Shown here: in pieces, positions 1,139 to 43,512 of the stretch | Numbering within the stretch: the first letter of the stretch is position 1 | Layout of the letters: every line of letters begins with the position of its first letter | Source: Planctomyces sp. SH-PL14 | GTDB taxonomy: Bacteria; Planctomycetota; Planctomycetia; Planctomycetales; Planctomycetaceae | Reading direction: 5' to 3' | NCBI RefSeq assembly: GCF_001610835.1 | Contig: NZ_CP011270.1 | Span: forward strand, 7,086,001 to 7,150,000 | DNA length: 64,000 nucleotides | The notes under the pieces: model-generated | The model's database searches: none | What the model was told of the DNA's origin: nothing | Seen by the model: only the letters and a program-made list of their open reading frames with translations | Program-made: the position numbers and the translations under genes

Positions 1139-2299
1139 GTGGCGCAGGGGAGTCCGACGGGAACGGGGCGGCCCGAGAAGATGGGGGTCGATTCCAGCCG
1201 GTGGTCGCGGGTGCGGGAGTTGGCGCAGGATGCGGCGAACTCCGGGATCTCCCGATTGGCGATCGCCGTCGCGGGATGCGGAACGACGCTCGATCCAGTT
1301 TTCGTCCAGAACGAACGGGGAGCCCTGCCGGCAAGGCCCCTCGACGATGACTCGATTTTTCTCGTCGCCTCGCTGACGAAACCGATCGTCGCGATGGCGG
1401 CCCTGCTCCTCGTCGAGCGGGGCAGGCTGACTCTGAATGACCGCGTCTCCGACCTGCTGCCGCTCAAGGACTCCTCGAAGAAGTCGCTCACGCTCCGTCA
1501 TCTGCTGACCCACACGTCAGGGCTGCCCGACATGCTCCCGGGCAACCGGGAGCTGCGGATGGCCCGCTCGCCGTTCGAGGCGTTCTACGAAGGGACGCTC
1601 CAGGCCGCGATGGACTTTCCGCCCGGGCGCGGCGTCCAGTACCAGAGCATGGGATTCGTTCTTCTGGACCGGATCATTGCGGACGCGGCGGGTGTTCCGA
1701 CGGCGCGGTTCATCCAGGAGGAGATCTTTGAGCCCTGCGGTATGAACGCCTCGATCCTGGGGGCGCCGGACGGGTGGTTTGACGGCGGTTCTCCGCAGTT
1801 GGAGCGGATCGTTCCTGTTCAAGTCCCGCCGGAGCAGGTCGGGGGGGACGAGTGGAACTGGAACAGCCGGTACTGGCGTCAGTTCGGTGCCGCGTGGGGG
1901 GGGCTTCTTTCGACGCCGGCGGACCTGGCTCGGTTCTGTCTGATGATGCTGTCGCGCGGGAGTGTCGGGGGTCGGAAGCTGTTTTCTCCCGCGACGATTG
2001 CCGCCGCGACGACCAACCAGCTCGGCGCGTTCCCTGACGTCCCGGAGGCGGACCGACGCTGTCGCGGGTGGGGGCTCGGCTGGCGGATGCAGTGGCCGGC
2101 GCATGCCGCCTCGTTTGGGGACCTGCTGTCGCCTGCGACTTATGGTCACTGGGGAGCGACGGGGACTGTCTTCTGGATTGATCCGCAGCTGGACCTGGCG
2201 ACCGTGATCCTGACCGACACGCCGCTTGATCGCAGCACGCGGTGGATTATGCGGCTGTCTAATGCGATCGCGGCGGCCCGGTTGGAGTCCGCGCGCTAA
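1139..2299 (+). CDS. Serine hydrolase of the class C beta-lactamase family
   Basis: A 386-residue protein of the beta-lactamase/PBP-like esterase family. The nucleophile motif SLTK is at residues 78-81, the second motif is YQS rather than YxN (in GVQYQSMGF), and the third is HWGATGT near the C-terminus, in the position of KTG. These features are typical of the esterase/transpeptidase-like branch and not of true lactamases. LRHLLTHTSGLPDM is another family signature. The GTG start lies 3 bp after the STAS stop codon, so the two genes are probably cotranscribed. An alternative ATG is at 1181. No signal peptide is seen. The substrate cannot be told from the sequence. Confidence 0.85.
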   Translation: MAQGSPTGTGRPEKMGVDSSRWSRVRELAQDAANSGISRLAIAVAGCGTTLDPVFVQNERGALPARPLDDDSIFLVASLTKPIVAMAALLLVERGRLTLNDRVSDLLPLKDSSKKSLTLRHLLTHTSGLPDMLPGNRELRMARSPFEAFYEGTLQAAMDFPPGRGVQYQSMGFVLLDRIIADAAGVPTARFIQEEIFEPCGMNASILGAPDGWFDGGSPQLERIVPVQVPPEQVGGDEWNWNSRYWRQFGAAWGGLLSTPADLARFCLMMLSRGSVGGRKLFSPATIAAATTNQLGAFPDVPEADRRCRGWGLGWRMQWPAHAASFGDLLSPATYGHWGATGTVFWIDPQLDLATVILTDTPLDRSTRWIMRLSNAIAAARLESAR

Positions 2300-2335
2300 G
2301 CGCTGTCCGCAACTCAGCGTCATCGGCCCACCGAG

Positions 2336-2660
2336 GTCCAGGGGGCACCCTGGTGGGGAGTGCAGAGGGGCAACGCCCCTTTGCCCGCCGGAGGCCTGGC
2401 CGTCGAGAGATGTCTGAAGGAGCACGTGTCCAAGCGCGGACAACGTGCCGGATGCCCCTTCAACTAACCCGCGGGGACTGCAAAACGAGCGGTGTCGATG
2501 GAATGAGTCCTCAACGCTGGTACCACAATGGGGGCATCCGTTGTGTCCCACGGTTCAGCGAGGAAAATGCCTCCGGGGTCAAGGGGGTGAGACCCCCTTG
2601 ACCCCAAGCTGCCATGGCACGTTGGGTTTGAGCTATCAGAGCCGTGCCGGCAAGCACGCC
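2336..2660 (+). repeat. Dispersed intergenic repeat, copy A
   Basis: First of four copies of a roughly 310-325 bp element. Shared blocks in order are: a hairpin-forming CCAGGGGGCACCCTGG at the left end, TTGCCCGCCGGAGGCC, GTCCAAGCGCGGAC, GCCGGATGCCCC, CATCCGTTGTGT, a GTCAAGGGGG/CCCCCTTGAC hairpin, GCACGTTGGGTTTGAGC and the right end CGTGCCGGCAAG. This copy fills the gap between the convergent hydrolase and hemQ genes, with 36 bp to one stop codon and 2 bp to the other. Short reading frames inside it are not conserved between copies. Confidence 0.9.
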
Positions 2661-2662
2661 GT

Positions 2663-3466
2663 TCAGACACCCGCCTCGAGCTTGAGGTGCTTCAACAGGT
2701 CGCCGGCCGACAGGATGTACCCAATGTAGAACGGACCGAACGCCGCGTACTTCGCCGACGCCTGATCGAACCGCATCGTGTACACAATCTCCTTGATGTG
2801 CTCCGGCGACCGGCTCCAGAGCGTCACCCCCCACTCCCAGTCATCGAAACCGGTCGACGCCGTGATCAGCTGACTCACCTTGCCGGCGAACTTGATCCCC
2901 GAAGTGGCATGCTCCGCCATCAGCGCGGACCGGACACTGAACGGCTCCGTGAACCAGTTCGCGTGCGGATCCCGGATCTTGTTCATCGGGTAAAAACAGA
3001 TCACCGGGAAGTTCGGAAAGTCCGGATACAGCCGCTGCTGATTCATCATCGGCAGCCGCTGCTCATAAGCCCGGACTTTGGCGGCGTAGCTCGGATCCTC
3101 CGCCGAGACCCCGTCCATCTTCAGCCGCTCGCTGTACTGCTCGACCGTCGGGACATACTCGGAGACTTCCGTGATCGACACGAACGAGTACGTCGGCTCG
3201 AGCGCCGCACCGATCGCCGTGGCCCGGATCGCCTGCTTGACCGCGTCGATCTTGAGGGGATCTGGATCGAGCATCATCAGCCCGAAGTCCGCCCGGTGCC
3301 CCGAGACGGCAAACACCTGCAGCCGCTCCGGATTGCCGGCCCGCTCCGGATTCAGGAGCTCTTCGAGCTGGCTCAGGCCCGCCCGCCGAGCCGCGGAGTC
3401 GAGACCGCCCCACACCTGCGGATTCACCCGGTAGTACAGGTGCAGGCAGTGCCACCCCGTCGTCAT
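2663..3466 (-). CDS. hemQ: Coproheme decarboxylase / chlorite dismutase family (HemQ)
   Basis: HemQ converts coproheme III to heme b in the coproporphyrin-dependent heme pathway of the cytoplasm. The C-terminal half carries the family signature IVYTMRFDQASAKYAAFGPF followed by YIGYILSAGDLL. The segments DFPVICFYPMNKIR-like and DDWEWGVTLWS also fit. The start is placed at the ATG of MTTGWHCLHLYYR, giving 267 residues, close to the usual length of about 250. The frame extends upstream without family similarity, and no clear Shine-Dalgarno sequence decides the start. No other heme gene is adjacent. Confidence 0.87.
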   Translation of the reverse strand: MTTGWHCLHLYYRVNPQVWGGLDSAARRAGLSQLEELLNPERAGNPERLQVFAVSGHRADFGLMMLDPDPLKIDAVKQAIRATAIGAALEPTYSFVSITEVSEYVPTVEQYSERLKMDGVSAEDPSYAAKVRAYEQRLPMMNQQRLYPDFPNFPVICFYPMNKIRDPHANWFTEPFSVRSALMAEHATSGIKFAGKVSQLITASTGFDDWEWGVTLWSRSPEHIKEIVYTMRFDQASAKYAAFGPFYIGYILSAGDLLKHLKLEAGV

Positions 3467-3752
3467 GCGGATGGTCGGATCAGGCAGGGGAGCGGCGTGA
3501 GAGGGAGGACGCACGCGAAGTTCCTTGAAGAGTTTTTCGGAAAGGCTTTGCGAAGACAGCACCGGGGGCCGGGCAGCCGTCGACAGCCACCAGCGAAGGT
3601 GACCAATCTGCCGGGGGCTACAGGTGTGGTTGGCCTGAACTGTCCCGGCGGTCACGGATTATGGCGACCGGGTGATGGGGCGGCAAACTGGGCGCGGCTC
3701 GCCGTTCTCCGGGGAGTCGGTAAAATCGCCCATCGTGTCCCAGGAGTCTTCT

Positions 3753-8062: not shown

Positions 8063-8202
8063 CACGAGATCCTCTCGTAGCGAGGAAAAGGCAAAATGTT
8101 CACTATCGCATAACACATTCTACGCAGACGCGTCAATTGGTATTGATGGATTCCCGGGATTGGCGCGCGTTCGGTGGCGTGGCAACGTCGCTGGTCGAAC
8201 GG

Positions 8203-8507
8203 GGTCCAGGGGCACCCTGGTGGGGAGTGCAGAGGGGGAACGCCCCTTTGCCCGCCGGAGGCCTGGCCGTCGAGAGATGTCTGAAAGAGTGGGTGTCCAA
8301 GCGCGGACGACGTGTCGTATGCCCCCTCACAACACGCTGGGATTCCAGGGCGACCGGTGAGTTCTCACCGCCGGCATCACAAAGGGGACATCCGTTGTGT
8401 TCCACGGTTCCTCAGGGAAGCGCCTCCGGCGGCAAGGGGTTGCCCCCTTGACCCCGGCTGCCGTAGCACGTTGGGTTTGAGCTGTCAGAGCTGTGCCGGC
8501 AAGGACG
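8203..8507 (+). repeat. Dispersed intergenic repeat, copy B
   Basis: This copy shares the left end (TCCAGGGGCACCCTGG), the TTGCCCGCCGGAGGCC arm, GTCCAAGCGCGGAC, the GCCTCCGGCGGCAAGGGG arm and the right end (GTGCCGGCAAGGACG) with the others. The middle (about 8330-8380) is more diverged, with a GGTGAGTTCTCACC dyad not found in other copies. It lies between the receiver gene's 5' end and the dehydrogenase stop codon, with 33 bp between its right end and that stop. Confidence 0.9.
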
Positions 8508-8540
8508 TCATTCGAAAACTCTGACTTCCTCGCGGCACCG

Positions 8541-9569
8541 CTACTCGACTTCGACGATCGCCTTGATGACCCCTGTCTCCGGCCGCGTGTAGGACTCGAA
8601 GTTGTCCACCAGAGCGTCAAAGCTCGTGCGGTGCGTAATCCACGGCGCGGTGTCGATCACACCGGTTTCGATCAGCCGGATGATCCGTGAGAAGTCGCCC
8701 GGGAGAGCGTTCCGGCTTCCCTTGAGCGTCAGCTCCCGCGCGTGCATCAGGCGATGCGGGAACTCGAGGCTGTCCGACGTGATACCGACATACACGAGCG
8801 TCCCGGTATGAGCGCAGTAGTTGAGGGCGTTCGACATCGAACGGGCATTGCCCGTGGCGTCGGTGACGACCGTGTAGAGCTCGCCGCCGGTGATCTCGCG
8901 CATCTGCTCCAGTTCCGAGCCGTCCCCCTTGAAGACGATCGTGTGCGGGACCTGGTACTGCCGCCGGCAGAAGTCGAGACGCGACGGGACCATGTCCATG
9001 ACGGTGATGACCGCCCCGGTGAGCCGCGCGAACTCGAGCGTCGCCAGCCCGATCGGCCCTGCGCCGATGATCAGGATGTGCTCCGCGGGGCGGGGAGCGC
9101 CGCGGTCGTTGGCGTGACACCCGATCGCCAGCGTCTCCACGAGGGCCAGCTGTTCGAACGACAGTCCCCCGGTCGACCGGTGGAGCTTCCGCGCGGGGAT
9201 GATCCATCGCGACCGCAATCCGCCATCGGTATGGACCCCCAGCACCTGGAGGTTCTGGCAGCAGTTCCCGGACTTGCGGCGGCTGGCGAAGCTCTGCTCG
9301 TTGTTGATGTACGGCTCGACGGAGCAGCGGTCTCCCGGGGCCACGTTCTGTACGTCCGGGCCGACCGCCAGGACCTCGACTCCCAGCTCGTGCCCGGGGA
9401 TTCGCGGGTAGCTGAAGAACGGCATCTTGCCGAGGTAGCCGCTGAGGTCCGTGCCGCAGATCCCCATCCGGCGCGTCGTCACGAGGGCTTCGCCGGGGCC
9501 GGGGGCCGAAGGCTCGGGGAGGTCGAGGCGGACGAACTTGCGAGGTTCTTCGAGGCAGAGCGCTTTCAT
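8541..9569 (-). CDS. Zinc-type medium-chain alcohol dehydrogenase
   Basis: A 342-residue MDR-family enzyme, expected to oxidise an alcohol or polyol with NAD(P). The catalytic zinc ligands are in GICGTDLSGYLG and RIPGHELG, and the Rossmann motif is in HILIIGAGPIGLATLEFARL. The structural-zinc loop is unusual: where four closely spaced cysteines are typical, only a CC pair is seen (RRKSGNCCQNLQVLG). The C-terminal domain is complete. The gene is single, with repeat copy B just after its stop. The substrate cannot be assigned; sorbitol or threonine dehydrogenase-like enzymes are the nearest named relatives by motif. Confidence 0.85.
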   Translation of the reverse strand: MKALCLEEPRKFVRLDLPEPSAPGPGEALVTTRRMGICGTDLSGYLGKMPFFSYPRIPGHELGVEVLAVGPDVQNVAPGDRCSVEPYINNEQSFASRRKSGNCCQNLQVLGVHTDGGLRSRWIIPARKLHRSTGGLSFEQLALVETLAIGCHANDRGAPRPAEHILIIGAGPIGLATLEFARLTGAVITVMDMVPSRLDFCRRQYQVPHTIVFKGDGSELEQMREITGGELYTVVTDATGNARSMSNALNYCAHTGTLVYVGITSDSLEFPHRLMHARELTLKGSRNALPGDFSRIIRLIETGVIDTAPWITHRTSFDALVDNFESYTRPETGVIKAIVEVE

Positions 9570-19199: not shown

Positions 19200-20099
19200 A
19201 TGAATGTCCTCATCTCCGGCGCGAGTGGTCTGATCGGTGGTCATCTCGTCCCTCGGCTGGAGAGGGCGGGGCATCATGTGTTCCGGCTGGTGCGGCGGAA
19301 GCCGTCGTCGCCGATGGAGCGGCAGTGGAATCCCGATGAGCGGGTCGATCCGATCGTGCTGGACCGGATCGATTCGGTGATTCACCTGGCTGGCGAGAAC
19401 ATCGGCGAGGGCCGCTGGACCGAAGAGAAGAAGCGCCGGATTCGTGAGTCGCGGGTTCAAGGGACGCGGCGGCTGGCCGAGGCGATTGCTGAAGCCCCCG
19501 CGCCGCCGAAGAGTCTGGTCTGCGCCTCGGCCATCGGGTTCTACGGCGATCGGGGGGATGCGACGCTCGACGAAGGGAGTTCGGCGGGGGCGGGTTTCCT
19601 GCCCGAGGTTTGTCGCGAGTGGGAGGCGGCCGCCGATCCGGCCCGCAGTCGCGGCGTCCGTGTGACTCATGTGCGGCTGGGGGTTGTCCTGAGCTCCGAA
19701 GGGGGAGCCCTGGCGAAGATGCTTCTGCCGTTCAAGATGGGGGTCGGGGGCGTCATTGGCAGCGGGAAGCAGTACTGGAGCTGCATCAGCGTCGATGAGG
19801 CAGCGGCGGTGTTTCAGTACGTGGCGGAGAACGATGCAGTCAGCGGGCCGGTCAATGCCGTCTGTCCGGAGCCGGTGACCAACCACGATTTCACCAAGAC
19901 ACTGGGCCGGATTCTGGGGCGGCCGACGGTCTTTCCGCTCCCGGCGTTCATGGCGCGGCTGGCGCTGGGGCAGATGGCGGACGATCTGATTCTTTCGAGT
20001 GCCCGCGTCGTTCCGGCGAAGCTGACTGCGGTCGGTTATCCGTTTGCCCATCCCAATCTGGAGTCGTCGCTCCGGGCGGCGCTGGAGGGGCATCGATAG
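19200..20099 (+). CDS. TIGR01777-type NAD-dependent epimerase/dehydratase
   Basis: A 299-residue SDR-type protein like YfcH/SULA. The N-terminal Rossmann motif is MNVLISGASGLIGGHLVPRL. The family motifs DSVIHLAGENIGEGRWTEEK, KKRRIRESRVQGTRRLAEAI and SAIGFYGDRGD follow, with DEGSSAGAGFLPEVCREWEA after that. The C-terminal DUF1731-like part ends DDLILSSARVVPAKLTAVGY. The activity of this family is poorly known. The ATG at 19200 has GGAG nine bases upstream. Repeat copy C starts 23 bp after the stop. Confidence 0.9.
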   Translation: MNVLISGASGLIGGHLVPRLERAGHHVFRLVRRKPSSPMERQWNPDERVDPIVLDRIDSVIHLAGENIGEGRWTEEKKRRIRESRVQGTRRLAEAIAEAPAPPKSLVCASAIGFYGDRGDATLDEGSSAGAGFLPEVCREWEAAADPARSRGVRVTHVRLGVVLSSEGGALAKMLLPFKMGVGGVIGSGKQYWSCISVDEAAAVFQYVAENDAVSGPVNAVCPEPVTNHDFTKTLGRILGRPTVFPLPAFMARLALGQMADDLILSSARVVPAKLTAVGYPFAHPNLESSLRAALEGHR

Positions 20100-20122
20100 G
20101 TCTACGGGCATCGGCCGAACCG

Positions 20123-20445
20123 GGTCCAGGGGCACCCTGGTGGGGGATGCAAGGGGGCAAGGCCCTCTTGCCCGCCGGAGGCCTGGCCGTCGAGAGATGT
20201 CTGAAGGTGTTTGTATCCAAGCGCGGACAACGTGCCGGATGCCCCCTCACCAATCCGCGGGGATTGCGAAGCCAGCGGTGTGGCGTAGAGCAGTCCTCAA
20301 CGCCGGTACCACAAGGGGAACATCCGTTGTGTCACACGGTTCCGCGACGAAAATGCCTCCGGCGGCAAGGGGGCGTGGCCCCCTTGACCCCAGGCTGCCG
20401 TGGCACGTTGGGTTTGAGCTATGGACGCCGTGCCGGCAAGGACGC
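20123..20445 (+). repeat. Dispersed intergenic repeat, copy C
   Basis: The clearest copy of the family. The left arm (20149-20183) contains a CAAGGGGG-type hairpin followed by CCCGCCGGAGGCC. The right arm (20355-20391) is GCCTCCGGCGGCAAGGGGG followed by a CCCCCTTG hairpin. The two arms are inverted copies about 170 bp apart with a one-base bulge. The left end forms CCAGGG-GCA-CCCTGG. It lies between the epimerase stop codon and guaA. Confidence 0.92.
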
Positions 20446-20603
20446 GGTTCGAGCCAGCGGGATAAGCGCCTGCGGTTCTCCCGGCCCCGCGGACACTTTA
20501 GCGCCGCGGCCGGGAGCGATATGATCCGGAATTCCCCACATTCCACCGCACCGCTTCCTCGTCGAGGCCGTGCGGCGGTTTCTTTTATTGACCCGGCCTG
20601 TCG

Positions 20604-41868: not shown

Positions 41869-41951
41869 GATGGGGCGGGGATATGAGGGAGGGGAGGGGG
41901 CCAAGCTGGAGAAGGTACGGCGTCGGGTGCCGCGTTGCCAGCCTTGGGACA

Positions 41952-42266
41952 TCGTCCTTGCCGGCACGACTCTGCTCGCTCAAACCCAACGTGCTACGGC
42001 AGCCGGGGTCAAGGGGGGCTCACCCCCTTGCCGCCGGAGACGCTTCCGTGAGGAACCGTGGTCAGCAACGGGCGGCCGCTTTGTGGAGCCGGCGTCGAGG
42101 ATTCGCTGCTCGTTTTGCAATCCCCGCGGGTTGGTGAGGGGGCATCCGGTACGTTGTCCGCGCTTGGACACGCGCTCCTTCAGAAAGAGCGAGACGAGAC
42201 GGGCCTCCGGCGGGCAAGGGGGATTCTCCCCCTTGCATCCCCTGACCAGGGTGCCCCTGGACCCGG
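41952..42266 (-). repeat. Dispersed intergenic repeat, copy D
   Basis: A reverse-orientation copy. Read on the minus strand it begins TCCAGGGGCACCCTGG, has the left arm hairpin CAAGGGGG/CCCCCTTG then CCCGCCGGAGGCC, the GTCCAAGCGCGGAC and GCCGGATGCCCC blocks, and the right arm GCCTCCGGCGGCAAGGGGG plus hairpin. It ends GTGCCGGCAAGGACG. The inner part (about 42070-42110 and 42160-42195) is more diverged. It fills the space between hisA (5' side) and the GCS2 gene stop (16 bp). Confidence 0.9.
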
Positions 42267-42282
42267 TTGGCTGGTGCGATGG

Positions 42283-43512
42283 CTACCGAAAACTTGCGCC
42301 TGCCGCGAGAGCGTCGGCCAACCGGCCATAGACCGCTCGCGGCGATTCGCCCGCCTCGAGATGACGGAGGATCCGCCGCGACAGCGAGCCCTCGCCCAGA
42401 TTCACCTCCAGCGGACCGCGCGACTCCCCGCCCGTTTTCAAAGCCGGATCGCGGGCTCCCTCCGCCAGCCGCCGCCAGAGCTCCGCGGCGGTGATCGACC
42501 GGACGTCCCGGACGCCAAACTGCGCCAGGTACTCAGAATCGTCGACCTCGGCCACCTCCGCCTCGCGGATCGTCCGCAACAGGATCCGCTCAAGCGGATC
42601 AACGCCGATCGCCTGCTGCCGTGCGAGGGGAGTCCACTCCTCAGAGACGAGCCGCTTCAGAACATCGATGACAATTCGCGCCACCGCCAGGTCGACCGCC
42701 GGCGACTCCTGCAGATCGAGGACGCGAATCTCGATCGCCCCCCGGCTGAAACGGGCAATCGCGCCGCGGGCGTTCAGGAACTCTTGCTGAAGAACCCCGT
42801 CGGCATCGTACGGCGCAATGTCCCGGAACATCGGTTCGAAAATCAGCCGGCGATACTCCGCCTCGCTGTAGACAGGCTCGGGGATAACGCGGCCGGTCAC
42901 GGACGCGATCCGGCGGGAGTTTGTCCGGTAGACCTCAAGTCGGTTGTCGAGGATTCCCGTGACGCGGCCGTCCACCATCGGCGAACTGGCGGCGAGGGCC
43001 GGGAGGATCGGAAGGATGAGCCGGATCGCCGCGTGGAGCCGGCCGAACTCCGCGTCGTCCGCGAAGGGAAGGTTGATGTGCATGCTCTGCAGGTTGGCCC
43101 ACCCGTGCCCCCGGCAGTCGAAAATCCGGTTGAACGTCTCATAGATGACGTGGTTGTCGTGCGGCCAGAGCTCCATTTCCTTCCCGGGATTCATCCACGG
43201 GTGCATGGCCGTCGGCAGCAACCGTGCTCCCAGCGGCTTCGCCAGGGCCTCGATCCGGTCGACGTGGGACTGCATCGCCCCCGCCAGCCCGTCGAGATTC
43301 GCCCGCGGCTCGCTCGTCTTGAGCTCGATCACGTGGCGCACGAGTTCGTTCGACCACGTGATGTCCGGGAATTCGACGTCCGAGGTGATCTCTCCCCCCG
43401 CCTGGGCGGAGAGGACGGCGTCGGCGATCGGGCGGACGTCGAGCGTGTCCGCCGCCACCAGCATGTATTCGAGCTCGATCCCAAACGCTTCAAACAGTCG
43501 CAGCCGGGCCAT
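42283..43512 (-). CDS. Carboxylate-amine ligase, glutamate-cysteine ligase type 2 family
   Basis: A 409-residue GCS2-family protein. These enzymes couple an amino-acid carboxylate to an amine with ATP. The N-terminus FEAFGIELEYMLVAADTLDV contains the ExE metal-binding pair. Conserved segments are HVIELKTSEPRANLDGLAGA, LLPTAMHPWMNPGKEMELWP and LQSMHINLPFADDAEFGRLH. The ATG at 43512 sits just before the conserved FGIE. Being alone, it could make gamma-glutamylcysteine or another amide; the product is not decided. Stand-alone homologues are common outside the gammaproteobacterial GshA type. A terminator follows from the gene upstream, so it has its own promoter. Confidence 0.85.
   Translation of the reverse strand: MARLRLFEAFGIELEYMLVAADTLDVRPIADAVLSAQAGGEITSDVEFPDITWSNELVRHVIELKTSEPRANLDGLAGAMQSHVDRIEALAKPLGARLLPTAMHPWMNPGKEMELWPHDNHVIYETFNRIFDCRGHGWANLQSMHINLPFADDAEFGRLHAAIRLILPILPALAASSPMVDGRVTGILDNRLEVYRTNSRRIASVTGRVIPEPVYSEAEYRRLIFEPMFRDIAPYDADGVLQQEFLNARGAIARFSRGAIEIRVLDLQESPAVDLAVARIVIDVLKRLVSEEWTPLARQQAIGVDPLERILLRTIREAEVAEVDDSEYLAQFGVRDVRSITAAELWRRLAEGARDPALKTGGESRGPLEVNLGEGSLSRRILRHLEAGESPRAVYGRLADALAAGASFR

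Follow-up and report, generated by a model that had tools for sequence, protein, structure and literature searches.

A very large family of REP/BIME-like elements, of probable MITE origin, behind genes in Planctomyces sp. SH-PL14

Four copies of the element and their anatomy

The window, by which we mean the whole 64,000-nucleotide stretch of the Planctomyces sp. SH-PL14 chromosome that was analysed, carries four copies of a palindromic repeat (A to D; Table 1), called by nhmmer with a profile built from 136 copies. Each of them lies close to a stop codon of a neighbouring gene, the identities of these genes having been checked by Pfam. Copy A sits between a beta-lactamase-type hydrolase gene, whose stop is 32 bp from the 5' end of the element, and hemQ, whose stop overlaps the profile match at the 3' end by 10 bp (the two are 2 bp apart if narrower limits are used). 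The HemQ protein encoded here has best relatives that are up to 74% identical and places the genome near the Planctomycetaceae. An earlier note on this DNA had put every copy within about 40 bp of a stop, and for the four window copies our own gene calls and profile limits bear this out (4/4); individual distances differ from those given there because the ends of the element were set differently.

Table 1. Features of the window, with positions counted from its first nucleotide.
Feature	Position	Strand	Remarks
Hydrolase gene (Pfam Beta-lactamase)	1139..2299	+	stop faces copy A
Copy A	2332..2672	+	nhmmer 314 bits; readable start ACCG at 2330
Hairpin H1 CCAGGGGGCACCCTGG	2338..2353	+	six stem pairs unchanged in 200-203 of 203 copies
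Hairpin H2 GCAGAGGGGCAACGCCCCTTTGC	2362..2384	+	IS4-type landing site in another copy (1/12)
5' conserved arm CCGCCGGAGGC	2385..2395	+	complementary to 3' arm
3' conserved arm GCCTCCGG	2569..2576	+	
Hairpin H3 CAAGGGGGTGAGACCCCCTTG	2580..2600	+	IS4-type target in other copies (11/12)
Conserved block CTGCCATGGCACGTTGGGTTTGAGC near 3' end	2609..2633	+	beyond it, increasingly ragged among copies
hemQ (Pfam Chlor_dismutase)	2663..3562	-	stop abuts copy A
Copy B	8198..8527	+	3' end to dehydrogenase stop 13 bp; 5' end to response-regulator start 81 bp
Zinc-binding dehydrogenase gene	8541..9569	-	stop faces copy B
Epimerase-family gene	19200..20099	+	stop faces copy C
Copy C	20118..20466	+	5' end to epimerase-family stop 18 bp; 3' end to guaA-type start 137 bp
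Copy D	41945..42268	-	5' end to GCS2 ligase stop 14 bp; 3' end to hisA-type start 76 bp
GCS2 ligase gene	42283..43512	-	stop faces copy D

Across the family the parts follow one order. The 5' part comprises H1 (CCAGGG..CCCTGG), H2 (GCAGAGGGGCAACGCCCCTTTGC), the arm CCGCCGGAGGC and a variable head of about 160 bases, and the 3' part comprises the arm GCCTCCGG, H3 (CAAGGGGG..CCCCCTTG), CTGCCGTGGCACGTTGGGTTTGAGC and a ragged tail. The centre of the element pairs with itself on either strand; every second one of the 203 copies was folded (n = 102), with mean energies of -157 and -151 kcal/mol. A few pair-preserving changes are seen in H2 and H3, most stem columns being nearly invariant, and covariation therefore neither proves nor disproves an RNA role. 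Rfam models applied to the window at gathering scores returned tRNA only, and five copies with their flanks, searched with E values up to 5, gave only scores far below gathering; a known RNA family was accordingly rejected, no Rfam model having matched. Two details of the sequence are recorded here as side observations. A hypervariable trinucleotide occupies about columns 91-93 of the element (GAAGGAG-NNN-GTGTCC) between well-conserved neighbours, with CAC, TGA, AGC, GGC and ATC recurring among 30 copies, and the H1 loop and C-run of a copy change together with the length of its G-run in ACCGGG(G)T, as if two alternative hairpins competed.

Size, distribution and conservation of the family

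The genome is a single contig of 8,442,773 bases, from which five 400-kb regions were sampled (1.99 Mb without masked bases; two of the five were added after the first position statistic). They hold 270 elements, 203 complete and 67 partial, which together account for 4.0% of the sampled bases, and extrapolation gives approximately 1,146 elements genome-wide, of which about 861 would be complete. To our knowledge, both this copy number and a 4% share of the genome are unusually high for bacterial MITEs. Pattern counts over the whole genome with four probes agree in scale, at 511, 831, 1,002 and 1,042 matches as against 0, 0, 10 and 1 for the reversed-pattern controls. Spacing along the chromosome is irregular (CV 1.13) and density differs among regions (39-69 elements per region, p = 0.005), so a role in chromosome-wide ordering is not obvious. 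Some partial elements have been split by insertion sequences and many are of half length; in the region 5.4-5.8 Mb (e.g., 5708229-5718892) half-length copies that cover model positions 2 to about 135-205 are clustered, possibly as a shorter subtype.

Outside this genome the element is hard to find. The probe with 831 matches here has none in any of 98 relatives, all of them of other genera, and the shorter probe with 1,002 matches reaches at most 15 in any of the same genomes, mostly near control level (15 against 14 for the reversed control in one case, up to 12 against 3 in others). Of 391 further genomes from the phylum, none has more than three matches to the probe that gives 1,042 here. 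The element profile found nothing in 80 loci of named relatives, and 169 other genomes of the family yielded only matches of 25-35 bp (E 0.004-0.01), in 4 genomes. Phages gave no match, nor did IMG/VR viral contigs searched with one exact pattern. On plasmids there are hairpin matches of 31-48 bp only (60 records in one search, 65 in another), and such matches also occur in 11 E. coli genomes, in every case on plasmids. Four plasmid matches were inspected, two beside mobV genes and two in alphaproteobacteria: the plasmids of Roseomonas and Novosphingobium carry H2-like hairpins of 31-48 bp with a CCGCCGGAGGC-like arm, and the two mobV-bearing plasmids carry H2-like hairpins of the same size range near their mobV genes. 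We judged the plasmid and E. coli matches to be more probably convergent GC hairpins than homologues. On the evidence of these searches, the element seems restricted to the lineage of Planctomyces sp. SH-PL14.

Within that lineage the element is conserved very unevenly along its length. At a mean substitution rate of 11.9% per site, 101 of its 340 columns are nonetheless conserved at 98.5% or more among the 203 complete copies, where equal substitution rates would give 8e-6 such columns; 133 of the 203 copies are free of any substitution in this core. Mean identity is 0.92 and 0.93 in the outer arms and 0.86-0.89 in the middle, and with the outer arms the most conserved part, a simple gene-conversion gradient would not give this profile. 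The closest pair among the 203 copies is 91% identical, which argues against recent copying in the sample. Linkage between variants is gone beyond 25-50 bp, no subfamilies were found among the 203 copies, and identity is only 0.004 higher between near neighbours than between distant ones. Two-state variants (e.g., one H2 pair that is GC in 85 copies and AT in 84) are unlinked to others. This pattern suggests that copies exchange sequence, and with variants shuffled in this manner recombination or gene conversion would also shape the family; with 67 of 270 elements partial, cores are also lost or split.

The core is kept no less well away from stops. Core substitutions per copy average 0.40 in convergent gaps, 0.63 in tandem gaps with the element in sense orientation, 0.66 in antisense orientation and 0.27 in divergent gaps, the divergent value being the lower in a comparison with the rest (p = 0.065), and substitution-free cores number 38/55, 28/51, 37/59 and 26/33, respectively. 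Two outlying antisense copies, one without 45 core columns and another without 10, raise the mean core gaps of their group to 1.14.

Placement behind genes

A codon-pair gene finder called 1,494 genes across the five regions, and 198 of the 203 complete copies are intergenic. Distances were tabulated for 197 gaps that each hold a single element, leaving aside the 5 complete copies outside gaps and one gap with a fragment; the 67 partial elements were excluded from all position counts. The median distance is 15 bp from the stop for element ends that face a stop and 124 bp from the start for ends that face a start, and 158 of the 219 stop-facing ends, as against 13 of the 175 start-facing ends, fall within 40 bp. 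A stop lies no more than 40 bp from an element end in 130 of the 197 gaps, where placing the elements at random in the same gaps gives 82 ± 5 and placing them at random intergenic bases 26 ± 5; the largest values in 1,000 draws were 98 and 40. Random placement in the same gaps further gives a median stop distance of 39.5 ± 3.6 bp, with 110.9 ± 5.0 stop-facing ends within 40 bp, and random intergenic bases a median of 194 ± 31 bp. The enrichment at stop codons that the earlier note had proposed to look for in other copies is thus present over 1.99 Mb, far beyond chance, and the preference for insertion (or retention) behind genes that it had suggested is supported as strong and independent of orientation. 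Its statement that every copy has a stop within about 40 bp holds in the window and fails genome-wide, since divergent gaps, which contain no stop, hold 33 of the 198 intergenic copies.

Tandem gaps permit the two sides of an element to be compared directly. In 100 of 109 the element lies nearer to the stop and in the other 9 nearer to the start (p = 1e-20), a bias that recurs in each of the five regions (17/18, 26/29, 26/28, 19/21 and 13/14) and in 75 of the 78 tandem gaps that lie between well-supported genes only. In tandem gaps of 200-400 bp (n = 30) the elements are 31 bp from the neighbouring gene on the stop side and 216 bp on the start side. Pure avoidance of promoters was rejected as an explanation, as the bias persists whether 0, 60, 100 or 150 bp are reserved on the start side, the last three reserves giving observed values of 13, 19 and 28 against expected values of 37 ± 5, 46 ± 8 and 51 ± 9. 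By type of gap, elements occupy 55 of the 245 convergent ones (1.03 per kb of gap), 33 of the 242 divergent ones (0.34 per kb) and 110 of the 1,002 tandem ones (0.51 per kb), and they avoid operon-like tandem gaps of less than 60 bp (6/270, against 104/732 of the longer ones; p = 2e-9).

Orientation obeys no such rule. For copies A, C and D the earlier note had also observed that the CCAGGGG end is turned towards the stop of a gene with the same orientation, and this is correct; genome-wide, 106 of the stop-facing ends are 5' (CCAGGG) ends and 113 are 3' ends, and tandem copies are divided into 51 sense and 58 antisense. The orientation rule was consequently rejected as a coincidence of the window, and the random orientation likewise led us to reject the idea that the element is joined as RNA to mRNA 3' ends.

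These counts bear on whether the palindrome acts at the 3' end of mRNA as a two-way terminator, a stabiliser of the message or a brake on ribosomes behind the stop. Such a role would fit a location 0-35 bp from many stops and at the ends of transcription units, the enrichment in convergent gaps, and a very stable fold on either strand. A reduction of translation by REPs closer than 16 nt to a stop is reported in the part of PMC12306157 available to us. Rare wobble pairs also tilt in the expected direction, G-U to A-C cells standing at 16:12 in sense and 15:24 in antisense copies; this leans slightly as an RNA role predicts and is not significant (p = 0.15; all stem pairs, p = 0.47), and an excess of G-U over A-C noted by eye was gone once all stems of the 203 copies were counted (52 vs. 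56). Against these points, sense and antisense copies are equally frequent, copies in divergent gaps are not less conserved, it is the primary sequence that is invariant and not pairing alone, with little covariation, and the element consensus lacks a T-tract. T-tract terminators were found between stop and element in 23 of 220 cases and beyond the element in 5 of 110, compared with 140 of 868 stops without an element and 66 of 1,041 start-side controls; the scan is confounded by the short search space next to elements and decides nothing. The action in the 3' untranslated region put forward in the earlier note thus finds no support in sense copies being as common as antisense ones and divergent copies as well conserved, and we regard a role at mRNA 3' ends as improbable.

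Origin, insertion sequences and meaning

Some copies extend past the core on both sides, and the two extensions form an inverted repeat (GGGTGCATTCGCCGAWTGGTGGTCG). If as many as 5 mismatches are allowed, this tip has 28 matches in the sampled DNA, of which 18 lie beside elements, all 18 pointing inward; 9 of the remaining 10 have 5 mismatches, the reversed control gives 11, and these 10 look like chance matches. At up to 3 mismatches there are 48 tip sites genome-wide (control 0), and all 30 that were fetched abut an element and point inward, 18 at its 5' end and 12 at its 3' end. Paired sites span 378-415 bp between the outer edges of the 22-base probes, which with 8 more bases per side gives a whole form of about 395-430 bp bounded by terminal inverted repeats of about 25-30 bp, readable in the best-preserved minority of copies. 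Remnants of tips were scored where a side beat all of its shuffles, as expected of 1 side in 21 (about 5%), and 3 of 396 sides without an anchor were dropped. On stop-facing sides they were detected in 14 of 43 with at least 60 bp of room, 10 of 54 with 20-60 bp and 13 of 122 with less than 20 bp, and on start-facing sides in 30 of 156. The inverted tips, together with remnants where room exists, indicate a MITE-like unit as the origin of the element, its tips having eroded since. The outer ends of readable tips that face stops lie at 4, 13, 18, 20, 29, 68, 85, 157 and 376 bp (n = 9); as 5 of the 9 are already within 4-29 bp, closeness to the stop does not come from erosion alone.

This last result bears on a further explanation of the placement, namely that terminators, or DNA immediately downstream of genes, served as the recognition target of the mobilising enzyme. 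The position of the readable tips (4-376 bp from the stop) would accord with it, as would a bias beyond promoter avoidance even in tandem gaps of 200-400 bp. Yet no shared target sequence was seen outside the tips in 30 sites, the core ends show no sign of a target-site duplication (4.66 vs. 4.71 ± 0.06), and copies are also present in divergent gaps, so that site-directed insertion appears unlikely. No empty site was recovered by synteny, the hydrolase gene being unmatched in the hemQ loci of 80 relatives. At three loci, two of them 4088995-4090431 and 4204020-4205541, inverted 3' ends of the element flank transposase genes; as an autonomous parent these were set aside, since they are probably products of inversion between insertion-sequence copies, the alternative being autonomous relatives.

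The element is itself a target of insertion sequences. The genome contains 42 matches to the transposase family PF01609, 40 of them above the cut-off, and 30 loci were read. A 473-residue type lies in H3 in all of its 7 copies, and a second type in H3 in 4 copies and in H2 in 1 (5/5), so that 12 of 12 copies of the two types are inside hairpins of the element. Examples are found at 7033569-7035017, 7300402-7301869 and 7385046-7386513, and duplications of 11-12 bp, such as GGGTGAGACCC, were read by eye. We take these transposases to be of the IS4 family, Pfam giving DDE_Tnp_1. Among ten loci with types of 443-536 residues, pieces of the element stand on both sides of 4, on one side of 3 and beside none of the other 3, and the remaining 8 of the loci read have a piece on one side in 1 case and none in 7. 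The two hairpin-borne types resemble ISRm22 of the IS4 family (nine copies according to the text and 10/10 according to the table of the accessible part of PMC1525189, all in REPs), and also ISPpu9 and ISPsy8, in being DDE transposases (PF01609) inserted in a palindrome (here 7/7 and 5/5), and differ in that the target is the H3 or H2 hairpin of a 340-bp element with duplications of 11-12 bp.

REP/BIME sites bind gyrase, IHF or other nucleoid proteins. From what the accessible part of PMC3733652 describes, REPs are extragenic and palindromic, with units of 20-40 bp that bear a GTAG or CGTC tag, occur in up to thousands of copies, lie mostly less than 20 bp from both flanking gene ends in convergent gaps, and in tandem gaps keep near the end of the upstream gene at a variable distance from the downstream one; a significant share of E. 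coli REPs is located 1-20 nt from the nearest gene end (cited in PMC12306157, seen in part). Placement close behind stops is hence an already known property of REPs. The present element shares with REP/BIME sequences its high copy number, intergenic location (198/203), palindromic structure and proximity to 3' ends in tandem and convergent gaps, and both are targets of insertion sequences (for REPs, in the portion of PMC1525189 at hand). It differs in its build: a core of 340 bp that contains three hairpins, together with inverted tips, takes the place of a 20-40 bp GTAG or CGTC unit. The GTAG end is absent from the core, and CGTC is found at the beginning of the ragged 3' end when that end is read on the reverse strand, there inside a far larger unit. 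It differs also in that no RAYT transposase is flanked by it. Two Y1_Tnp genes are present in the genome, one about 1.15 kb from an element and the other, RAYT-like in our own reading of its sequence, 4.6 kb from the nearest fragment. RAYT was rejected as the mobiliser, the RAYT-like gene (about 2097400-2098500) standing not beside the element and having GTAG-type REP repeats (GTAGGGTGC..GCACC, read by eye) near it instead; with 3 sites in 2.0 Mb and 0 in the control, these would be a separate, tiny REP system. The position at gene ends also brought integron attC sites into consideration; they were set aside because the element is 340 bp long and its copies are scattered over both strands.

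Bacterial MITEs include Correia and ERIC/RU. The element is like them short, non-coding, intergenic, palindromic, multi-copy and provided with inverted tips, and unlike them in its invariant core, its mostly unreadable tips, the absence of a target-site duplication at the core ends and the fact that a separate transposon with the same tips was not seen among the 30 of 48 tip sites fetched. We found no description of it in the literature that we searched. We conclude that the element makes up a very large REP/BIME-like family that descends from a MITE-like unit, is restricted to its lineage and appears to be new; as far as our searches show, its size, the share of the genome that it takes up, its private distribution and the contrast between core and tips are not known from other families.

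In our preferred reading, to which we give even odds (a probability of roughly 0.5), an old MITE-like element is tolerated behind genes and its core is selectively kept as a putative DNA site. A self-complementary element would have spread in this planctomycete lineage until it numbered about 1,100 copies, insertions would have survived where they did least harm, directly behind genes, unused tips would later have been lost, and selection would have held the core in place as a candidate protein-bound site. The ground for a DNA site is that retention of the core depends neither on the direction of transcription nor on its presence; the reading is weakened in that invariant columns could also result from constraint on the source copies while the family spread. 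Taken further, the same point yields neutral MITE remnants without function, in which selection purged all other insertions and the invariant columns reflect what mobilisation required of the source. MITE-like tips, restriction to one lineage, avoidance of operons and promoters and irregular spacing are all as this would predict. However, few copies show readable tips, which a transposase would need, whereas the inner core has stayed intact; with no pair of the 203 above 91% identity, the family does not have the look of a young one; and all 30 fetched tip sites belong to elements. This leaves us to view neutrality as somewhat unlikely.

If selection on the core as a DNA site is accepted, one may go on to suppose, though we think it less likely than not, that some 1,100 former transposon copies now form a genome-wide set of putative protein-binding sites at the ends of transcription units, selected copy by copy amid exchange between copies, which could serve, for instance, torsion relief or the nucleoid. 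Palindromes at gene ends are known, and three explanations of their position compete, namely targeted insertion, tolerated junk and function. This family has many copies in random orientation, a core that does not vary and tips whose decay provides an internal clock, and is thereby suited to separating these three answers; it also offers site-specific insertion sequences a large number of ready landing sites.
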